A stretch of 64,000 nucleotides of DNA from NCBI GenBank assembly GCA_018433595.1, contig JAHDQY010000019.1:1-64000 (forward strand), written 5' to 3'. The notes beneath the pieces are model-generated. The model had not been told where the DNA came from, did not search any database, and saw nothing but the letters and a program-made list of their open reading frames with translations. The DNA comes from Synergistales bacterium (GTDB lineage Bacteria > Synergistota > Synergistia > Synergistales > Aminithiophilaceae). Every line of letters begins with the position of its first letter. Position 1 is the stretch's first letter. Of the stretch, positions 486 through 9,741 are shown piece by piece. A program made the position numbers and the translations under genes.

Positions 486-1334
486 ATGAACTTCGAGCCC
501 GGAACCATCCTGAAAGAAACGGCCGGGAGACTTCAGGCCCTCATCGGACCCGATTTTGAGAGACTCTCGCTGGAACGCACCGTTTTCGGCCTCTTTTTCA
601 CAGGCGTCAAGCTCAGCAACGGCCAAGGCGGCATCAGCTTCACCCCCGTCAAGGCCATTCCCGAAGCGGTCTGCTGCCCGACGTCGGCGCGGGCCATGCC
701 CCTTTCGGGGCGCCTGAAAGGGATGCCGGTCACCAAAATTCTCCAGGAAATGTGGGAACCGGGCAGCCCCCTGAAAAAGACCCTGGGCATAGCCGTCTTG
801 AACGCCCTTTCGGCGGGCTGCGAAAAGGAACTGGAAGGGCAAGGCTACAGCCTGGAGATCGGGGATAACGCCCTCGACCAGATCGAGATCGGCGACAATG
901 AGAAGGTAGTCGTCGTCGGAGCCCTTGTCCCCATGCTCAAACGATTGAAAAGCCGAGGGAAGCCCTTCACCATCCTCGAGATGGACCCCCGCACGCTCAA
1001 GAAGGACGAGATGCCCTTCTTCGCCCCTTCCGAGGAGGCCCCCCTGCACGTTCCCGGGGCGGATCTTCTGGTCACGACGGGAACCACCCTCGTGAACGAC
1101 ACGCTGGAAGGTCTGCTCTCCCTGGCAAAACCGGGAGCCCGGGTCGTCGTCGTCGGCCCCACGGCCAGCCAGTATCCGGAGGAGTTCTTCCGCCGCGGAG
1201 TGACCTGCCTGGGCGGCATCAAGGTCACGAAGGCCGACGGCCTGCTGGACATCCTCTCCGAGGGCGGTTCCGGGTATCATTTTTTCGGGCGTTATGCCGA
1301 ACGCACGACACTGACGAAGTCTTCGGAAAGTTGA
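486..1334 (+). CDS. DUF4213/DUF364 putative heavy-metal chelation protein
   Basis: A 282-residue cytoplasmic protein. It has the layout of the PF13938/PF04016 family: an N-terminal enolase-like domain (about 1-100, with ...KAIPEAVCCP...) and a C-terminal Rossmann-like domain (about 115-270, containing VVVVGALVPML and VVVVGPTASQYPEEFF). A Desulfitobacterium structure of this family was proposed to bind heavy metals at the domain interface; its reaction is unknown. It is the first gene of the operon, 12 bases before the moeA-like gene, downstream of a dyad shared with an ABC importer operon. A role in handling an imported metal or metal complex is inferred from this context only. Confidence 0.8.
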   Translation: MNFEPGTILKETAGRLQALIGPDFERLSLERTVFGLFFTGVKLSNGQGGISFTPVKAIPEAVCCPTSARAMPLSGRLKGMPVTKILQEMWEPGSPLKKTLGIAVLNALSAGCEKELEGQGYSLEIGDNALDQIEIGDNEKVVVVGALVPMLKRLKSRGKPFTILEMDPRTLKKDEMPFFAPSEEAPLHVPGADLLVTTGTTLVNDTLEGLLSLAKPGARVVVVGPTASQYPEEFFRRGVTCLGGIKVTKADGLLDILSEGGSGYHFFGRYAERTTLTKSSES

Positions 1335-2639: not shown

Positions 2640-3674
2640 GTGAAAACCCCCCTGCGCGGAATCCTCATCGTTCTCGTCTGCATTTTCCTGACCGGCTCCG
2701 TTCCGGCATCAGCCAAAACGATCGTGGACATGGCCGGAAACGAGGTCGACGTCCCCGACAAGGTGGAGCGCATCCTCATCACCTGCTACGGAGGAGCGAC
2801 CCACGAACTGACCGTCCTCGGAGGAGCCGACCTCATCGTCGGCCAGCCCTCCATGAAGCCCTTCCCCCTCCTCGCCAGAATGCGTCCCGGCTTCAAGGAA
2901 CTGCCCGACGCGGGGTCCTTCAACAACGTCAACGTCGAAGAGGCCCTCAAGCTGAACCCCGACCTGGTGATCGCCAGCGTCACCTCCGCCCAGGGCAACA
3001 GGCAGCTCGCCAACGCCGGCCTGCCCGTCGTGGCCGTCCTCACGGGAAAGGCCGACATCGAGAAGCTCCAGAAGGAGTTCCTCCTCGTCGGCTCCCTCAT
3101 CGGCCGTGAAAAACGGGCGCAGCGCCTGGTCGACTACTGGCAGAAGGGATTGAAGCTGCTGGAGGAGCGCACGGCTCCGATCCCCCGGGAGGAACGCAAA
3201 CGCGTCTACTACATGTTGGGAAATTTCTTGCATACTAACGGGAGCGAATGGTGGGGCGAGTTCCTCATCATGACGGCTGGGGGGATCAACGTGGCCTCCG
3301 AACTCGGCAAGGGACGGGACATCAACGCGGAGACGCTGCTGCGGTGGGACCCCGACGAGATCATCGTCAGCGGAAACGAAGGCAGTCTTCTCCCGCTGGC
3401 GGAACTGCGGGATCATCCCCAGATCGGAACGCTCCGCGCCGTCCGTGAAAACCGCCTCCACTACTGTCCCGTAGGCGCCTTCTGGTGGGACCGTCCCTCG
3501 CCTGAGGCGATCCTGGGCTTCCTCTGGCTGGGGAAGACGCTCTACCCCTCCCGTTTCGCCGACGTCGACCTCGCCGTGGAGACGAAGGCCTTTTTCAGGG
3601 AGTTCTATGACACCACGCTGAGCGACGAGGACGTTCAGGCCTTCCTCAATCCCGACCTCCCCCTCCGCAAGTAA
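2640..3674 (+). CDS. Periplasmic binding protein, siderophore/cobalamin type (PF01497), first copy
   Basis: 344 residues starting with GTG directly after the moeA-like stop. An N-terminal signal peptide ends near ...PASA-KTIVDMAG. It has the two-lobe PF01497 layout with TIVDMAGNEVDVP at the start, NVEEALKLNPDLVI in the N lobe and ...WWDRPSPEAILGFLWLGKTLYP near the end. No lipobox cysteine is seen. No permease follows it, so it probably feeds the permease and ATPase encoded by the converging operon (8.7-9.7 kb). Its C-terminal lobe resembles the second binding protein (6813-7871) and the tail of the radical SAM protein (3810-5594). Confidence 0.85.
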   Translation: MKTPLRGILIVLVCIFLTGSVPASAKTIVDMAGNEVDVPDKVERILITCYGGATHELTVLGGADLIVGQPSMKPFPLLARMRPGFKELPDAGSFNNVNVEEALKLNPDLVIASVTSAQGNRQLANAGLPVVAVLTGKADIEKLQKEFLLVGSLIGREKRAQRLVDYWQKGLKLLEERTAPIPREERKRVYYMLGNFLHTNGSEWWGEFLIMTAGGINVASELGKGRDINAETLLRWDPDEIIVSGNEGSLLPLAELRDHPQIGTLRAVRENRLHYCPVGAFWWDRPSPEAILGFLWLGKTLYPSRFADVDLAVETKAFFREFYDTTLSDEDVQAFLNPDLPLRK

Positions 3675-3809: not shown

Positions 3810-5594
3810 CTATTTCGTCCAGGTCCAGAATCGATGAGGTTTCGCAAAAGAGCGGTTCACCTCTTCGGGATGATAGTCGCAACCGTAAAATTCCCTATAA
3901 AATTTCAGCGCTTCGGCTTCGATGTCGAAATCGTAGATATCGGGATGAAGGGTTCGGGCCATGAAGAGAAGCCCCAGTATCCAGCGGGGACTGCCGAAAT
4001 CCCAGCCGGGAGAGGGGAAGGTGTGGATCCGGCCGAGTCGGGTGGCGATCACGTCGATCCCCTTTTCCCGGCACCGGCGCCGGAAATCCTCAGGTGGCGA
4101 CGAGAGGAAGCCCGAAACGAAGATGTGTTCCGGATTCAGCTCGTTGACCTTCTCCGGCGTCAGGTTGATGCCCGGCCTCCCCTTGCATCGGACCTCTTTG
4201 TTGACGCTGACGGCACCGGCCGCCTCAAGGAGGTTGTTTTCCAGGCGCTCTCCCTTGATGTGGAAAAGAGGCGTTCCCATGGCGTAGTAGGCCCGGGGTT
4301 TTCTCGTGATGGAGGGATAGCCCCGCTTGATTTCGGCCAGTTTCCCCTCCATGTAGGAGGCAAGCGCCTCGGCTTTTTCCGAAACCCCGGCAAGCCGTCC
4401 GAAATGTCTCACCAGGAAAAGATATTTTTCAGGAATCTGAAGGTTGTCGTGGAGCAGCTTCAGCCCGTCCTCCGCAAGGACCCTTTCCCAGACGGACAGC
4501 ACCTGCTCCTGCCTTGAAACGCCGCTGGCGATGAGGATGGCCTCGATCATCTCCAGAGCCCGCGTGAAGGGGTAGCCGCCGTGAAAATCCATCTCCCGGA
4601 AGTTTCCCTCTCTGTAGGCGTCGCCTTTCACAAAGGCAAGGCTTCGGCCGCAGGCCAAGCAGCGGTTTCCTTTGAGGGTCGGTTCTCCGTCGACAAGCCG
4701 GGCCCCCATGGGACCGTAGAAGTCGCGGCGGTAGATTACCGTGCCACAGCCGGGGCAGCGGGTATCCAGGAAATCGCTTCCCGGCGAGTTGAAAAGATAG
4801 ACGTGGTTCAACGTCTTCGTGAGTTCCAGGCAGAGCGCTTCGGCCTCTGCGATGGTCGGCTCCAGGCCGGGATCGGCGCCTTCGAGGGGGAGGAAGCGCA
4901 TGATCTGAAGCGGCATGTCCCGGGAGAGCCCCCCCATGATCTCGGCCAGGCGGCGGAGTTCCCCCTTCTTTCCCCGGTGGAAGAGGCAGGAGACCTCGAC
5001 ATGGACGCCCGCTTCGTGAAAAAGCGCCATGTTCCTGATGACGGGGACGACCGTCGATCCGCCGCATTCCCGATAGACGCCCCCGGAAAGGCCTTTCACG
5101 CCGATGTTGACGAAATCGAGGAAAGGGACCAGATCCGCCAGAGACTCCTCCGTAAAGTAGGCGCTGGTGGAGCATCCGACCAGGAGGCCCCTCTCATGGG
5201 CCTTCGCCGCCACGTCGCGGAAAGTGAAATAGGAGGCCAGCGGATCGTTCATGAGGAAGACTATCCCCAGGCACTCCTCATCGACGGCCCGAGTCACCAC
5301 CTCTGCGGGCAAGAGGCGTTTCAGCGCCGGACTCTCCGGCGAGACGCCCGAGACCAGCGTGCTGGAAATGCAGCCGTTGCAGCGGAAAACGCACCCCGTC
5401 GTGGTGATCTGGAGGAACTTCCCGCCGGGATGGAAGTGAAAGAGGGGAGCCGTCTCGATCGACACGGGAGTGACCACGAGATACGCTCCGGGAGCGACCT
5501 CCTTCATGCGGCCGGCCACGTTGCGGTAACGGCCGCAGGCCCCGGTCCGGCCCTTCTCGACCGAACAGGCCCGCTCGCAGACGGGGCATCTCAT
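3810..5594 (-). CDS. Radical SAM protein (AmmeMemoRadiSam-like) fused to a binding-protein-like C-terminal lobe
   Basis: 594 residues from the ATG that overlaps the upstream stop as ATGA. An upstream in-frame ATG at 5639 is less likely. Four cysteines (C3, C6, C10, C20) form an N-terminal metal site. The radical SAM cluster motif CVFRCNGC (C68, C72, C75) opens a domain to about residue 270, then a zinc ribbon (CPGC...CLAC, about 277-317). This matches the AmmeMemoRadiSam type. Residues about 421-594 instead resemble the C lobe of PF01497 binding proteins: KPRAYYAMGTPLFHIKGERL, LTPEKVNELNPEHIFVSG, WDFGSPRWILGLLFMARTLHP. There is no signal peptide, so that lobe would be cytoplasmic. Last gene of the importer operon. 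Substrate and reaction are unknown. Confidence 0.8.
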   Translation of the reverse strand: MRCPVCERACSVEKGRTGACGRYRNVAGRMKEVAPGAYLVVTPVSIETAPLFHFHPGGKFLQITTTGCVFRCNGCISSTLVSGVSPESPALKRLLPAEVVTRAVDEECLGIVFLMNDPLASYFTFRDVAAKAHERGLLVGCSTSAYFTEESLADLVPFLDFVNIGVKGLSGGVYRECGGSTVVPVIRNMALFHEAGVHVEVSCLFHRGKKGELRRLAEIMGGLSRDMPLQIMRFLPLEGADPGLEPTIAEAEALCLELTKTLNHVYLFNSPGSDFLDTRCPGCGTVIYRRDFYGPMGARLVDGEPTLKGNRCLACGRSLAFVKGDAYREGNFREMDFHGGYPFTRALEMIEAILIASGVSRQEQVLSVWERVLAEDGLKLLHDNLQIPEKYLFLVRHFGRLAGVSEKAEALASYMEGKLAEIKRGYPSITRKPRAYYAMGTPLFHIKGERLENNLLEAAGAVSVNKEVRCKGRPGINLTPEKVNELNPEHIFVSGFLSSPPEDFRRRCREKGIDVIATRLGRIHTFPSPGWDFGSPRWILGLLFMARTLHPDIYDFDIEAEALKFYREFYGCDYHPEEVNRSFAKPHRFWTWTK

Positions 5595-6802
5595 CGGCAG
5601 GGCCTCCCCCCTCGCGATTCCTTGGCAAATCGGATCCAAAAGCCCCGATCGTCGTTGTCAATGAGAAATTTTTCGATGCCGGCCTCGGCCAGGGCGTCAC
5701 GAAACGCCTTCAGTCTGAAATCGGAGGTGCGCTCCCGGACCTGAGGTTCCCATTGGGGATCGCGCTCTCTCATCTGGGCGGTGATTTTCCTTTTCAGATC
5801 GCCGTTCCCGAAGCCGCCGCCGATCCAGGCATAGCCGCCTGGCGCCAGGACCCGCCAGACCTCTCGAAAGGCCCGGGCCGGTTCCTCCCAGAAAAAGACC
5901 GATCCCCGGCTGACGACCAGGTCCACCGAACCGCTCTCCAGAGGAATCCGATGAACATCCCCCAGGAGGGTGCCCACCCTGGAACCCCTTTCGCGCTCGG
6001 CGATGCCTTCCTCGGCGAAAGCCAGCATCTCGGGGCTGATGTCCAGAAGGAGAACCTCCAGCTCGGTGATCTCGGCAACGGCCAGACCCAGCAGGCCCGG
6101 GCCGCTTCCCAAATCGAGACAGCGACCCCGGGTGATCCCCGTCTCTTCCTTGATGCGCTCCGCCACGACCGGATAAAGAGGGGCAAAGACCTCCCTGGCC
6201 GTCCTGACAAACTGTGCAGCGTCGGTCTTTTTCATCTCTGCTCCCTCCAGGAAAGGGGATGCCCCCGTCAGGTGACGCTCCGAAACAAGCCGCAGGAGCT
6301 CCGGCAAAAGGCCGTCCCGATTGTCGGAAGTCACCTCCACGACCCGCACATCCTGTCTGCCGCGGATCTTGCGCGGGAGCGAAGCCCCCGATCGCTTGAG
6401 GACGCCCAGGACCGGCAGCGGCGAATCGAGGCAGGCCATGACGGCATCGTGAAAGGCCATGGCCCTTTCCTCGAAAAAACCGATCTCGTCCATAACGACG
6501 GCGTCAAAACGATCCTCCAGGGCCTTCCTCAAAAGAGACGCCCCCAAACCGTCAAAGGCCGACGTCAGAGCCTCGAAGCCCCGGTCGGTGCGCCGGGCGA
6601 TCAGGGATGAAGGCGCCCCATGAGCGGCACCGAAAGGCTCGATACAATAACCGCACATTCCTGTCCCATCGAAGGCGGGTCGCGTCCGGAAGCCGCCGAT
6701 CCTCCAATTCAGCCTTCGAAGCAGTCTGCCGAGGAGGGTACTCTTGCCCGCGCCGACGGGGCCGGTCAAAAAGAGATTGAAAGGTGCGTTCTCTCCGGCC
6801 AC
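5591..6802 (-). CDS. THEP1-type nucleoside-triphosphatase fused to a class I SAM methyltransferase
   Basis: 403 residues. The N-terminal half (about 1-185) has the NTPase_1/THEP1 pattern: Walker A GPVGAGKST at 14-22, a conserved GGFRTRP-type strand, and Walker B VVMDEIGFFE. The C-terminal half (about 205-395) is a Rossmann methyltransferase with motif I LDLGSGPGLLGLAV near 229 and a following acidic strand LLLDISPEML. Methyltransferases of this kind act on small molecules or tetrapyrroles. An internal Met near residue 189 could give the methyltransferase alone, but the frame is continuous. It lies 10 bases after the binding-protein gene and overlaps the radical SAM gene. It probably modifies a small molecule handled by this transport locus. 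Confidence 0.8.
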   Translation of the reverse strand: MAGENAPFNLFLTGPVGAGKSTLLGRLLRRLNWRIGGFRTRPAFDGTGMCGYCIEPFGAAHGAPSSLIARRTDRGFEALTSAFDGLGASLLRKALEDRFDAVVMDEIGFFEERAMAFHDAVMACLDSPLPVLGVLKRSGASLPRKIRGRQDVRVVEVTSDNRDGLLPELLRLVSERHLTGASPFLEGAEMKKTDAAQFVRTAREVFAPLYPVVAERIKEETGITRGRCLDLGSGPGLLGLAVAEITELEVLLLDISPEMLAFAEEGIAERERGSRVGTLLGDVHRIPLESGSVDLVVSRGSVFFWEEPARAFREVWRVLAPGGYAWIGGGFGNGDLKRKITAQMRERDPQWEPQVRERTSDFRLKAFRDALAEAGIEKFLIDNDDRGFWIRFAKESRGGRPCR

Positions 6803-6812
6803 GGTGCCCCTC

Positions 6813-7871
6813 CTACTTCTTCCGCATCGAACGGATCAGGATTTCCCGGGCCTCTTCCTCACCCAGGTCGTAGTGCCAGAAAAGGCGGTAGAAGTTTCGG
6901 GCTTCCTCGACGATATCGAAGTCGAAAATCTCCGGATAGAGCAGGTTGGCCAGCCATCTCAAACCCAGGACGCGGTTCACCGACGGCGGACGGTCGAACC
7001 AGCAGAAGGGATTGTCCGGAACGGCGTAGACGTGGCCGCTCTTCACGGCCTCGATATCCTTCCAGTGGGTATCGCCTGCAATGCCCTCGCTGTAGCCGCC
7101 CCGAGAAGCTCCCCAGGCGATGATCAGGTCCGGGTTCCAGAGGAGAATCTGCTCCATGGATACGGACGACATCCCGACCTGAGGGCCCATGGGCACCTCA
7201 GCCACGTTGACGCCGCCCGCCAGATCCAGCACCTGGGTGTGGATGGAGCCGGCCGGATCGGTTTTCCGGCCGTCGGGCCCTTCGGCGTAGTAGACCCGGA
7301 CTTTCTTGTCCTGAGGAATTCGAGCGGCCCTGTCGGCGATGGAGCGGACCGTCTCCCGGCAATACCGGGCCAGGACCTCGGCCCGCTCTTCCTCTCCCAG
7401 AAGCTTTCCCAGGAAAAGATAGGATTCGTCGAGGCGCGTCAGCTCGTTGTCCACAAGAACCACAGGGATGCCCGTCTGACTCTGCAGCTTGTCCGCGAAG
7501 GACCGGGCCGTCTCGTTGATGAAGGACATGGAGACGAAAAGATCCGGCTTGAGGGCCATGATCTCCTCCAGGTTACCCGTCTGGGTGGAAAACCAGCCGC
7601 CGATGACGGGCAGGTCACGATATTCGGCGGGGAGGAAATGCTTCTCTCCGGGTCTGAGCTCGTAGTTCCACCCCATCAGCTGATCGGGGGCCAGGGTGTA
7701 GATCAGGGTCGTCCCGATGGGGTTCGTGGAATAGACCTTCCGGGGGGAGACGGGGACGACAAGAGGCCTCCCCGCCATGTCCACGATCTCCCGCGTCTGG
7801 CCGGCCAGCGCGGCGGCGGAGAGGCAGAGCAGGAAAAAGGCGGTGGCAAGCGACAATCTGAACCTCTTCAA
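6813..7871 (-). CDS. Periplasmic binding protein, siderophore/cobalamin type (PF01497), second copy
   Basis: 352 residues using a TTG start at 7871, with AGGAG eight bases upstream. A longer frame from 7910 would overlap the ATPase gene and has no site. The signal peptide is KRFRLSLATAFFLLCLSAAALA, ending at AGQTREIVDMAG. The N lobe has GNLEEIMALKPDLFVSM and the C lobe NPFCWFDRPPSVNRVLG...LYPEIFDFD. It is encoded 14 bases after its ATPase and is the natural partner of the permease at 8689-9741. The ligand is unknown. The family takes iron-siderophores, cobalamin, heme and other metal chelates. Confidence 0.88.
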   Translation of the reverse strand: MKRFRLSLATAFFLLCLSAAALAGQTREIVDMAGRPLVVPVSPRKVYSTNPIGTTLIYTLAPDQLMGWNYELRPGEKHFLPAEYRDLPVIGGWFSTQTGNLEEIMALKPDLFVSMSFINETARSFADKLQSQTGIPVVLVDNELTRLDESYLFLGKLLGEEERAEVLARYCRETVRSIADRAARIPQDKKVRVYYAEGPDGRKTDPAGSIHTQVLDLAGGVNVAEVPMGPQVGMSSVSMEQILLWNPDLIIAWGASRGGYSEGIAGDTHWKDIEAVKSGHVYAVPDNPFCWFDRPPSVNRVLGLRWLANLLYPEIFDFDIVEEARNFYRLFWHYDLGEEEAREILIRSMRKK

Positions 7872-7885
7872 GATGACGGCTCCTT

Positions 7886-8692
7886 TCAGGAAACGCGCTT
7901 TTGGACACACCCGACGAGGCTGTCGGGAATGCAGAGCTTCAAACCGCCCTGCCTTGCGTCGAGGGAGATGATCCTGACGTCGATTCCGTACATGGCGCGA
8001 ATGTTTTCCCTCGTGACCACCTCGGACGGAGAGCCGAGCCCCAACGGGCGCCCCTGCCTGAAACAGAGGACCCGGTTGGCGTAAAAAAAACTCTGCTCCG
8101 GGAAGTGGGTCGAAAGGATCACGGTCAGCCCCCTGCGGGAGAGGGACTTCACCCGCTCCATGACCAGAAACTGTCTGCCGAAATCCAGGTTGGTCGTCGG
8201 CTCGTCCAGGATGAGAATCCTCGGCTCCTGGGCCAGCGCCCGCGCCAGGAGGACCAGCTGCTGCTCCCCGCCGCTGATTCGCGTGTAGACCTGATCCTTC
8301 AGGTAGGAGATATCGAGCATCGCCATGGCCTCTTCGGCCTTCTCGACATCCTCCTCCGAGGGAGAGGCGAAAAGCGCGAGATGGCTCGTCCGCCCCATGA
8401 GAACCACGTCCAGCACCCGGAAGGGGAAGACGGCCCCCCGAGCCTGAGGCACGTAGCCGATGAGCCGGGCTCGCCGGGCCGGAGACCAGCCCTCCACGTC
8501 ACGACCGTCGACGAGCACCTGGCCGGCCTGCTTCTCCAGAAGGCCCAGGATCGTCTTGAAGAAGGTCGTCTTGCCCGAGCCGTTGGCACCGAGCAGGCAG
8601 AGGACCTCACCACCTTCGACGAACATCGAGATGTCCTCGACGACGGTCTTGCGGCCGTAGCCGCAGGAGAGCCCCTTCGTCTCGAGCCTCAT
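7886..8692 (-). CDS. ABC transporter ATP-binding protein, FecE/BtuD type
   Basis: 268 residues, a single nucleotide-binding domain. Walker A GANGSGKTT near 35-43, signature ISGGEQQLVLLARAL, Walker B ILILDEPTTNLD, and a switch histidine in LSTHFPEQS. The Q-loop lies in GYVPQARG. This is the type that powers iron-siderophore, cobalamin and heme importers. Start and upstream stop overlap as ATGA with the permease gene, so the two are translationally coupled. Confidence 0.92.
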   Translation of the reverse strand: MRLETKGLSCGYGRKTVVEDISMFVEGGEVLCLLGANGSGKTTFFKTILGLLEKQAGQVLVDGRDVEGWSPARRARLIGYVPQARGAVFPFRVLDVVLMGRTSHLALFASPSEEDVEKAEEAMAMLDISYLKDQVYTRISGGEQQLVLLARALAQEPRILILDEPTTNLDFGRQFLVMERVKSLSRRGLTVILSTHFPEQSFFYANRVLCFRQGRPLGLGSPSEVVTRENIRAMYGIDVRIISLDARQGGLKLCIPDSLVGCVQKRVS

Positions 8693-9741
8693 CGCAGGGC
8701 TCCTCTCTCCCTCAGGAGAAGGAAGAGAAAGAAAGGGACGCCGATGAGAGCCGTCAGAACCCCCAGAGGGATCTCGACCGACGCCAGAATCCGCGCCAGG
8801 TCGTCCACGAGGAGCAGGAAAACGCCTCCGGCGACGATCGAGGCCGGGTAAAGGTCCTTGTAGTCGGGGCCCACGAGAATGCGGGCGAGGTGAGGGATCA
8901 CCAGCCCGACCCAGCCGATCATCCCGCTGACCGAGACCGAGGCGGCCGTCACCAGAGTGGCGCAGACGATGACCAGCAGCTTGTAGCGCATCACGTTCAA
9001 CCCAAGGGCCGTCGCCTCCTCATCGCCGAGAGAAAGGACGTTGAGACGCCAGCGGATGAGAAAGAGCGGGACAAGCCCCAGAAAAACGGGAACGGCGACG
9101 AAGCCCACGTCGGACATCGTGATGGACGAGAGGCTCCCCATGAGCCAGAAGGTGATGGTGGGCAGCTTGTCGTAAGGGTCGGCCACGTATTTGAGAAACG
9201 ACGTCGCAGCCGTGAAGAGGGACCCCGTCATGATCCCCGCGAGGACCAGCCCCAGGGTCCGGTCGTGGCGTATCTTGCCGCTGAGCAGACAGGTCAGCCC
9301 CACGGCACCGAGACTGATGAAAAAGGCGAGCGCCTGAATCCCCACGACCCTCAGCGAGAGGCAGATTCCCAGAGTCGCGCCGAAACCGGCGCCGGCTGCC
9401 GCACCGAGCAGGGCGGGGGAAGCCAGAGGATTGCGGAACAGCCCCTGGTAGCAGGCCCCCGAGGCGGAAAGAGAGGCCCCGATGAGCATCGCCGCCAGAA
9501 TGCGGGGCAGCCGCACCTTGAAGACAACCGTATGAAGGACGTCCCAAGGCCCCGCATCGATCAGGAAGAGCCGGGCCGCGACAAGCTCCGCCAGCTGACG
9601 GGGAGAGACGGGATAACGCCCCAGGGCAAAGGAGAGAAACATCGCCGCCAGAGGAAGCACCAGATAATTCAGCTTCTTCCAGTCACGGCTTGTTGCTCTT
9701 TCGCAGGAAAGATCCCGCAGGGTTCCCGATTCCTGGTACAT
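8689..9741 (-). CDS. ABC transporter permease, FecCD/BtuC type
   Basis: 350 residues with about ten hydrophobic segments. FecCD family hallmarks include RLPRILAAMLIGASLSASGACYQ, RNPLASPALLGAAAGAGFGA and GMIGWVGLVIPHLAR..VGPDY. A hydrophilic N-terminal stretch of about 25 residues precedes the first membrane segment, so an internal start is possible. First gene of the reverse operon. Its predicted transcription start lies about 55 bases upstream, beside operator B. The two periplasmic binding proteins of the locus probably share this single permease. Confidence 0.92.
   Translation of the reverse strand: MYQESGTLRDLSCERATSRDWKKLNYLVLPLAAMFLSFALGRYPVSPRQLAELVAARLFLIDAGPWDVLHTVVFKVRLPRILAAMLIGASLSASGACYQGLFRNPLASPALLGAAAGAGFGATLGICLSLRVVGIQALAFFISLGAVGLTCLLSGKIRHDRTLGLVLAGIMTGSLFTAATSFLKYVADPYDKLPTITFWLMGSLSSITMSDVGFVAVPVFLGLVPLFLIRWRLNVLSLGDEEATALGLNVMRYKLLVIVCATLVTAASVSVSGMIGWVGLVIPHLARILVGPDYKDLYPASIVAGGVFLLLVDDLARILASVEIPLGVLTALIGVPFFLFLLLRERGALR

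Follow-up and report, generated by a model that had tools for sequence, protein, structure and literature searches.

What does a lobe of a periplasmic binding protein (PBP) do at the end of a cytosolic radical SAM enzyme? The question is raised by a gene at positions 3810..5594 on the minus strand of the window, the whole stretch of 64,000 nucleotides of Synergistales DNA analysed here. A sequence-only reading of this DNA had described the product as an AmmeMemoRadiSam-type enzyme joined to the C lobe of a PBP, and had suggested that an imported ligand is processed inside the cell.

Architecture of the Fusion Protein

The whole gene encodes a 594 aa radical SAM–PBP half-lobe fusion protein, as delimited from the open reading frame, the family matches and an AlphaFold2 model. 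The reading frame starts with an ATG at 5594 and ends with a stop codon at 3810-3812. The product joins an AmmeMemo-like radical SAM enzyme, complete with zinc ribbon, to part of a TroA/BtuF-type PBP, namely its inter-lobe helix and C lobe.

All the segments described here lie on the minus strand. Residues 1–270 (4785..5594) correspond to a Cys-rich N-terminus (C3/C6/C10/C20) and an AmmeMemo-like radical SAM barrel of the PFL-activase/NifB fold, as identified by PF04055, TIGR04337 and Foldseek. The 4Fe-4S/SAM motif C68xxxC72xxC75 is located at 5370..5393 and is invariant in 56 orthologs. The zinc ribbon (C280/C283/C312/C315) follows in residues 271–325 (4620..4784); it is 98–100% conserved in the fusions and is also present in AmmeMemo enzymes. 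A helical linker with an invariant GGY..TR covers residues 326–387 (4434..4619) and, from the DSSP assignment of the model and the PBP alignment, represents at most a remnant of the N lobe. The inter-lobe (backbone) helix region of the PBP occupies residues 388–424 (4323..4433; AlphaFold2, Foldseek) and the C lobe residues 425–570 (3885..4322; phmmer and hmmsearch against PDB, Foldseek, conservation). Conservation and the PBP alignment delimit a fusion-specific tail of residues 571–594 (3813..3884), in which N580, S582, F583 and P586 are invariant. The tail motif NRSFxKP was found in fusions only and is absent from the aligned PBPs.

The N-terminus, MRCPVCERACS, is the Cys-rich beginning of the enzyme itself (MRCPVC) and the protein has no export signal, in agreement with the earlier statement that a signal peptide is missing. 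A type II importer binding protein has two lobes and an export signal; the fusion has neither the second lobe nor the signal.

The Radical SAM Half

Membership of the radical SAM superfamily was established with PF04055 (E 1.6e-12, 48.4 bits, above the cut-off). The AmmeMemoRadiSam model TIGR04337 gave an E value of 8.8e-32 and a score of 110.3 bits, below its curated cut-off of 220. The AlphaFold2 model of the whole fusion, built with 56 orthologs, reached a pLDDT of 91.5 and a pTM of 0.90. When compared with PDB using Foldseek, it produced two sets of matches, PBPs and radical SAM enzymes, the latter including PFL-activase (3c8f, TMt 0.72) and NifB (7jma, TMt 0.69). The family profiles of NifB, NifX and NifN did not match the fusion.

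Among the 56 aligned orthologs, C68/C72/C75, C3/C6/C10/C20 and C280/C283 are invariant and C312/C315 are conserved at 98%, which bears out the previously proposed AmmeMemoRadiSam-type N-terminus with its C68/C72/C75 motif and zinc ribbon. The fusion and AmmeMemoRadiSam (TIGR04337) have in common the Cys-rich N-terminus, the CxxxCxxC motif, K167/E200/R233/N269 and the zinc ribbon. They differ by FLMNDP in the fusion versus TYNEP in AmmeMemo enzymes, SIETMP versus the PEKKP region, Q62 versus S, G165 versus D and M232 versus S. The TYNEP motif and the neighbouring AmmeMemo active-site signature are absent from the fusion family, which also possesses an extra C-terminal region of 270 residues and is sited in transporter loci. 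The canonical AmmeMemo homologs found in more than 130 relatives aligned with approximately residues 1–325 only. The possibility that the lobe is a standard part of AmmeMemo proteins was rejected, as these homologs stop at about residue 325. Among the fusion clusters examined, whose annotations were read without a dedicated search for these two families, no AMMECR1 or Memo gene was noticed.

The Binding-Protein Lobe

In a phmmer search against PDB, the fusion matched 4pag with an E value of 1e-8 over residues 324–581, and also 4hn9, 4ovk, CeuE and MolA. With a profile of 20 orthologs (hmmsearch), the E values were 3.4e-20 for 4pag (residues 372–582), 1.8e-18 for 4ovk, 3.8e-15 for 4hn9 and 6.5e-10 for MolA. 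The Pfam model PF01497 scored 17.8 bits on the whole fusion (E 0.0024), under the gathering score of 27.5. The PBP matches obtained with Foldseek comprised 4hn9 (E 5.6e-11; 2.3–2.4 Å over about 194 columns with 4hn9_A) and MolA (3psa), with CeuE and BtuF ranking among the solved lobes nearest to it. When residues 325–594 were folded alone, the pLDDT was 88.5 and the model superposed on 4hn9_A with a TMq of 0.63 and an rmsd of 2.4 Å. A PF01497-type C lobe is present, by fold and by sequence, and the similarity is far beyond chance.

The lobe had been assigned to residues 421–594. Its identity as a PBP C lobe holds, both in sequence and in fold, but its limits are different. AlphaFold2 and Foldseek place the PBP-matching part, composed of the inter-lobe helix and the C lobe, at approximately residues 388–570: it starts earlier, with the inter-lobe helix at about 388, and residues 571–594 belong to the tail of the fusion and not to the PBP. 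Two objections had been foreseen, a C-terminal region that is not a binding-protein lobe and a lobe that is usual in AmmeMemoRadiSam proteins. Neither holds, because the predicted structure superposes on the PBP 4hn9 and AmmeMemoRadiSam enzymes outside transporter loci lack the lobe. The N lobe is missing from the model, where a few helices (residues 340–401) stand in its place. In the PBP alignment, a remnant is at most faintly visible around residues 334–348 (GGY..R, the last N-lobe element).

PBPs and nitrogenases have related folds, and NifB is among the Foldseek matches of the radical SAM half. The fusion might be a scaffold, the radical SAM half building or modifying a molybdenum, tungsten (Mo/W) or Fe-S cofactor on the PBP-like lobe in the way that NifB works with its NifX/NifN-like partners. 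NifB proteins fused to a NifN-like domain exist (PMC5715403), and one fusion operon (L086, see below) contains a nitrogenase-like gene set. The lobe, however, matches ABC-transporter binding proteins in both sequence and structure, and nitrogenase-like genes were present near only two loci, so that we consider this explanation very unlikely.

Distribution and Origin of the Family

A motif scan of 84,980 species yielded 67 further fusion loci, with 44–56% identity to the window's protein and, in nearly all cases, one full-length ORF of about 590 aa. This rules out an artefact of one genome or a frameshift, and indicates a conserved family, not a one-off. The loci were distributed between the Bacillota (23), Thermodesulfobacteriota (17), Methanobacteriota (12), Campylobacterota (5), Myxococcota (3), Deferribacterota (3), Pseudomonadota (2) and Chlorobiota (1), with one unplaced. 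The family is thus known from nine named phyla, the window's included; its carriers are many anaerobic bacteria and some methanogenic archaea, among them Methanoculleus. The scan relied on motifs, and forms devoid of them could escape it. An earlier scan with two zinc-ribbon/linker motifs returned 0 loci because these motifs are not conserved, and its result is not evidence of rarity.

Within the window's phylum, and for this phylum only, the fusion seems rare: the 188 genomes examined contained 2 intact copies, that of the window and that of G053 (56% identity). In G001 and G003, which belong to the same genus as the window, the fusion copies have a large internal deletion removing about residues 104–525 and an early end. 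Deleted copies were seen at L003 and L004 (G001, G003) and at L042 9886-10380. L085 13969-14970 is a truncated paralog in which Y replaces D117, and L101 8865-9233 is an extra copy reduced to an N-terminal remnant. Methanoculleus chikugoensis possesses a second, near full-length copy (L137 3333-5060, minus strand). Apart from such decayed copies (e.g., that of L085), the 84,980-species motif scan revealed no lobe-less member of the fusion subfamily. A plasmid search yielded ordinary PBPs, Methylobacterium H1 is a normal secreted PBP, and PADLOC gave no match.

The alignment of 56 orthologs showed 74 invariant positions spread across both halves. The C lobe and the radical SAM half are equally conserved, with a mean entropy of 1.56 versus 1.55. 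In trees, each half of the fusion formed one clade (aLRT 100) against 34 AmmeMemo enzymes or 36 neighbouring PBPs. As far as the trees go, this fits a single fusion event that was probably followed by spread. No description of a fusion between a cytosolic half-PBP and a radical SAM enzyme was found in the open-access literature searched, in line with the earlier remark that no described example was known. The component families are known; their combination, conserved across bacteria and archaea, is new as far as that search goes. The closest precedents were NifB carrying NifX-like or NifN-like domains, the MolBC-A importer and the chelator proposal for DUF364.

A Probably Re-Tooled Pocket

The C lobe has invariant pocket positions at M439, R450, E452, P474-G475, G534, P536 and W538. 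The PBP2 proteins of the fusion loci conserve E439, S450, H452, W533, P534 and R538, at which positions the fusions have M439, R450, E452, F533, G534 and W538, nearly all of them invariant. The same positions are constrained in the fusions and in the transporter PBPs, with different residues. The conservation of the cleft loops was not significantly higher than that of the rest of the lobe (Mann-Whitney P 0.10). On these sequence grounds we read the lobe as a functional, re-tooled putative binding site. Given this difference in pocket residues, the lobe may hold the ligand in a modified, metal-free or precursor form, and what it putatively binds may be something other than the imported compound.

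The lobe could also be regulatory or structural, sensing a ligand or only stabilising the enzyme, with no presentation of a substrate. The absence of the N lobe speaks for this, since a two-lobe cleft cannot form from the PBP parts alone. The invariant residues at the pocket positions R450, E452, G534 and W538 argue in the opposite direction, as does the presence of the lobe in every sampled member of the family, decayed copies aside; we find such a role quite unlikely.

The Locus and Its Neighbourhoods

The fusion is the last gene of a minus-strand run, FecCD-FecE-PBP2-NTPase-MTase-fusion, and this six-gene order is the same in G053. The run is composed of a FecCD permease (8689..9741; PF01032, E 3e-86), an ABC ATPase of the FecE/BtuD type (7886..8692), PBP2 (6813..7910; PF01497, with an N-terminal signal-like segment), whose orthologs adjoin fusions, and a 403 aa protein uniting NTPase_1 (PF03266) with a SAM-dependent methyltransferase (5591..6802). 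On the plus strand are PBP1, a second PF01497 binding protein with a signal-like hydrophobic N-terminus (2640..3674), a MoeA-like protein, which is the third MoeA_N copy of the genome (1347..2639), and a DUF4213-DUF364 protein described as “putative heavy-metal chelation” (486..1334; PMC2954201). All these genes were assigned by family match. NTPase_1 and the methyltransferase form one ORF in the window, two overlapping genes in G001 and G003, and separate genes in G053.

The earlier placement of the fusion within a transporter locus was confirmed by this FecCD/PBP operon and, in a survey of the neighbourhoods of the homologous fusions, by the presence of a PBP or FecCD gene in 54 of the 67 loci. 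The commonest partner of the fusion is the methyltransferase (49/67). DUF364-type genes were found in 19 of the 67 loci and TonB receptors in 18, the latter in diderms only, Sporomusa included. ModA-type genes were present in 10 loci, NTPase_1 in nine, MoeA in five and ModE in four. In G001 and G003 the fusion is broken, yet the remaining genes of the operon (transporter, PBP, NTPase, methyltransferase) are intact, so that import can do without the fusion.

Several loci showed particular arrangements. Two Syntrophomonadaceae (L112 and L117, about 6.7–9.3 kb) have an ABC transporter of the NitT/SsuA type instead of FecCD, followed by the fusion and the methyltransferase. An HmdB/BioB-like radical SAM protein recurs in L083, L084, L085, L096 and L100 (for example L085 5900-6913, 140 bits to TIGR03957, under the cut-off) and may be a further enzyme of the pathway. 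In Desulfosporosinus fructosivorans (L086 6193-9902), nitrogenase-like genes lie between the methyltransferase and the fusion: a NifK-type gene (316 bits versus a nifK cut-off of 427) and NifD-like and NifH-like ORFs recognised by eye, with a second nitrogenase-type pair downstream. In a relative, a PBP-FecCD-FecE-NTPase operon without fusion is present at L057 310-5884 (G126), followed by a pair resembling 2-hydroxyacyl-CoA dehydratase and its activator, then by selenium/molybdenum-hydroxylase genes (by eye).

A Link to Molybdenum or Tungsten

The uptake of Mo and W in anaerobes is known mainly as the uptake of inorganic oxyanions. Molybdate itself requires no TonB receptor and no radical enzyme, and the fusion loci therefore suggest an organic Mo/W compound.

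The Moco riboswitch senses the molybdenum cofactor (Moco), and variants of it probably sense the tungsten cofactor (PMC2408646). Using Rfam, RF01055 (Moco riboswitch) or RF01713 (Moco-II) was detected in 10 of the 47 fusion loci scanned. In L088, L089, L090 and L100, the transport-fusion operon is immediately preceded by a Moco riboswitch; in L096 and L143, the riboswitch precedes a DUF364-TonB receptor-MTase-fusion series. When RF01055 was counted genome-wide for 32 loci, it gave 138 matches in the 19 genomes having any. At the genome densities of these 19 genomes, the fusion loci should contain 0.75 matches; they contain 13, an approximately 17-fold enrichment. By locus, nine of the 19 in riboswitch-bearing genomes had RF01055, compared to 0.73 expected (P 6e-9). 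The enrichment is claimed from this genome-density test; the control, 147 kb of lobe-less loci with 0 Moco riboswitches, is too small to count alone. In Clostridium (L094), the fusion, the methyltransferase, ModA, ModB and an ATPase gene form one chain, ModA and the permease being above their curated cut-offs. ModE adjoins the Campylobacterota fusions, XdhC, FmdE and MoeA are among the neighbours of the fusion, and ModABC, ModE, MoeA and XdhC genes are recurrent in the loci. In its genomic context, the family thus shows Moco-riboswitch or ModE control or an operon shared with a Mo/W transporter, which points to a tie of the fusion loci with molybdenum, tungsten or both.

This link had been missed by the sequence-only reading and is seen only via the relatives. 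Rfam detected no Moco riboswitch in the window or at its operon. Moco riboswitches, MoeA_N genes and AFOR_N (tungsten-type oxidoreductase) genes each number three in the window's genome. One Moco riboswitch of this genome lies near xanthine-dehydrogenase-like, DUF364-like and MOT1-like transporter genes (L160 10415-12318, G000:C15, by eye).

The ligand could instead be another metal complex, such as a corrinoid, nickel or iron siderophore, the Mo/W link being secondary. CeuE and BtuF, among the closest solved lobes, would suit such a ligand, as would the cobalamin riboswitch found downstream at L121 and the 42 of 67 fusion loci with no strict Mo/W marker within the locus DNA examined. Against it stand the enrichment in Moco riboswitches, both in density and by locus, the fusion-MTase-ModA-ModB chain of L094 and the ModE neighbours; we hold this alternative to be unlikely.

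Proposed Role

We propose that the protein is a cytosolic radical SAM enzyme with a half-PBP as substrate clamp, which would process the organic Mo/W ligand of an acquisition locus; we regard this reading as evenly balanced between right and wrong. In diderms, an organic Mo/W complex would pass through the TonB receptor and then the FecCD/PBP importer. Inside the cell, the half-PBP would capture the ligand, or a metal-free or modified form of it, and present it to the radical SAM site. The SAM-dependent methyltransferase, together with NTPase_1 in the window, would work with the fusion, and NTP-dependent steps are possible. Radical chemistry and methylation would convert the ligand, most likely releasing the Mo/W carrier, or remodelling it, to supply cofactor synthesis. 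In this model the ligand is inferred to be an organic complex of Mo or W, which the lobe would bind, and the reaction is probably processing rather than synthesis. Weighing against the model are the cleft loops, not significantly more conserved than the rest of the lobe, the pocket residues unlike those of the importer PBPs, the 42 loci devoid of a strict Mo/W marker in the locus DNA examined, the operon of the window with no Moco riboswitch, the survival of the importer beside broken fusion genes in G001 and G003, the NitT/SsuA-type transporter of L112 and L117 and the cobalamin riboswitch of L121. That the compound processed is the imported one, as was suggested at the outset, has in our judgement about even chances.

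The fusion could also be a biosynthetic enzyme which, with the methyltransferase and DUF364, makes a Mo/W-binding chelator or pterin-like compound that is exported and then re-imported through that same locus, the lobe holding a precursor. DUF364 proteins have been proposed to make flavin/pterin-like chelators, the product being a metal-binding flavin or pterin derivative (PMC2954201). The pocket residues unlike those of the importer PBPs are as expected for a precursor, and a methyltransferase and a radical SAM enzyme are typical biosynthetic partners. The clusters nevertheless have no obvious recurring exporter, NRPS or other chelator-synthesis genes, and the linkage is to import; we regard biosynthesis as rather unlikely.

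A broader form of the processing model is tentative, and we would not bet on it: a radical SAM enzyme would have captured a transporter lobe, which became the half that recognises the substrate in a cytosolic enzyme, and this enzyme would belong to a so far unrecognised pathway by which anaerobic bacteria and methanogens import and unlock, or salvage, organic Mo/W complexes. The cargo of such a salvage pathway would be a metallophore-bound metal or a preformed pterin cofactor.

The fusion points to an uncharacterised step in the acquisition or use of Mo/W by microbes. A locus that unites Moco riboswitches with TonB receptors, FecCD importers and a radical enzyme of its own suggests the uptake of an organic Mo/W compound with intracellular chemistry. 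The architecture clearly illustrates how a transporter lobe can be re-used, in its putative role, as the substrate-binding module of an enzyme, and the gene is a marker for finding the ligand.

Comparison with Known Systems

The siderophore release enzymes Fes and FhuF are cytosolic; they are iron-regulated esterases or reductases and have no binding-protein lobe. Siderophore loci and fusion loci have in common a TonB receptor, a FecCD importer and an intracellular enzyme that acts, in the fusion loci putatively, on the imported complex. The fusion loci differ by the binding-protein lobe carried by the enzyme and by Moco rather than iron regulation. With the type II (FecCD/BtuCD) binding proteins of PF01497, such as MolA (HI1472), CeuE and BtuF, the fusion shares the inter-lobe helix and the C lobe, whereas it lacks the N lobe and the signal peptide, is joined to an enzyme and has other invariant pocket residues.

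MolBC-A of Haemophilus is a FecCD-class importer for a Mo/W species, as the importer of the fusion loci would be, and MolA is among the closest folds of the lobe. MolBC-A imports inorganic molybdate with low affinity (PMC4031551), whereas the fusion loci have in addition TonB receptors, a methyltransferase and a radical enzyme. NifB with NifX-like or NifN-like domains (PMC5715403) is, like the fusion in its putative role, a radical SAM enzyme joined to a domain binding a small ligand or cluster, of nitrogenase-type fold in the NifN case, and in a molybdenum context. In the fusion, the joined domain is a transporter binding protein and not NifX or NifN, and most of the loci are without other FeMo-co genes.
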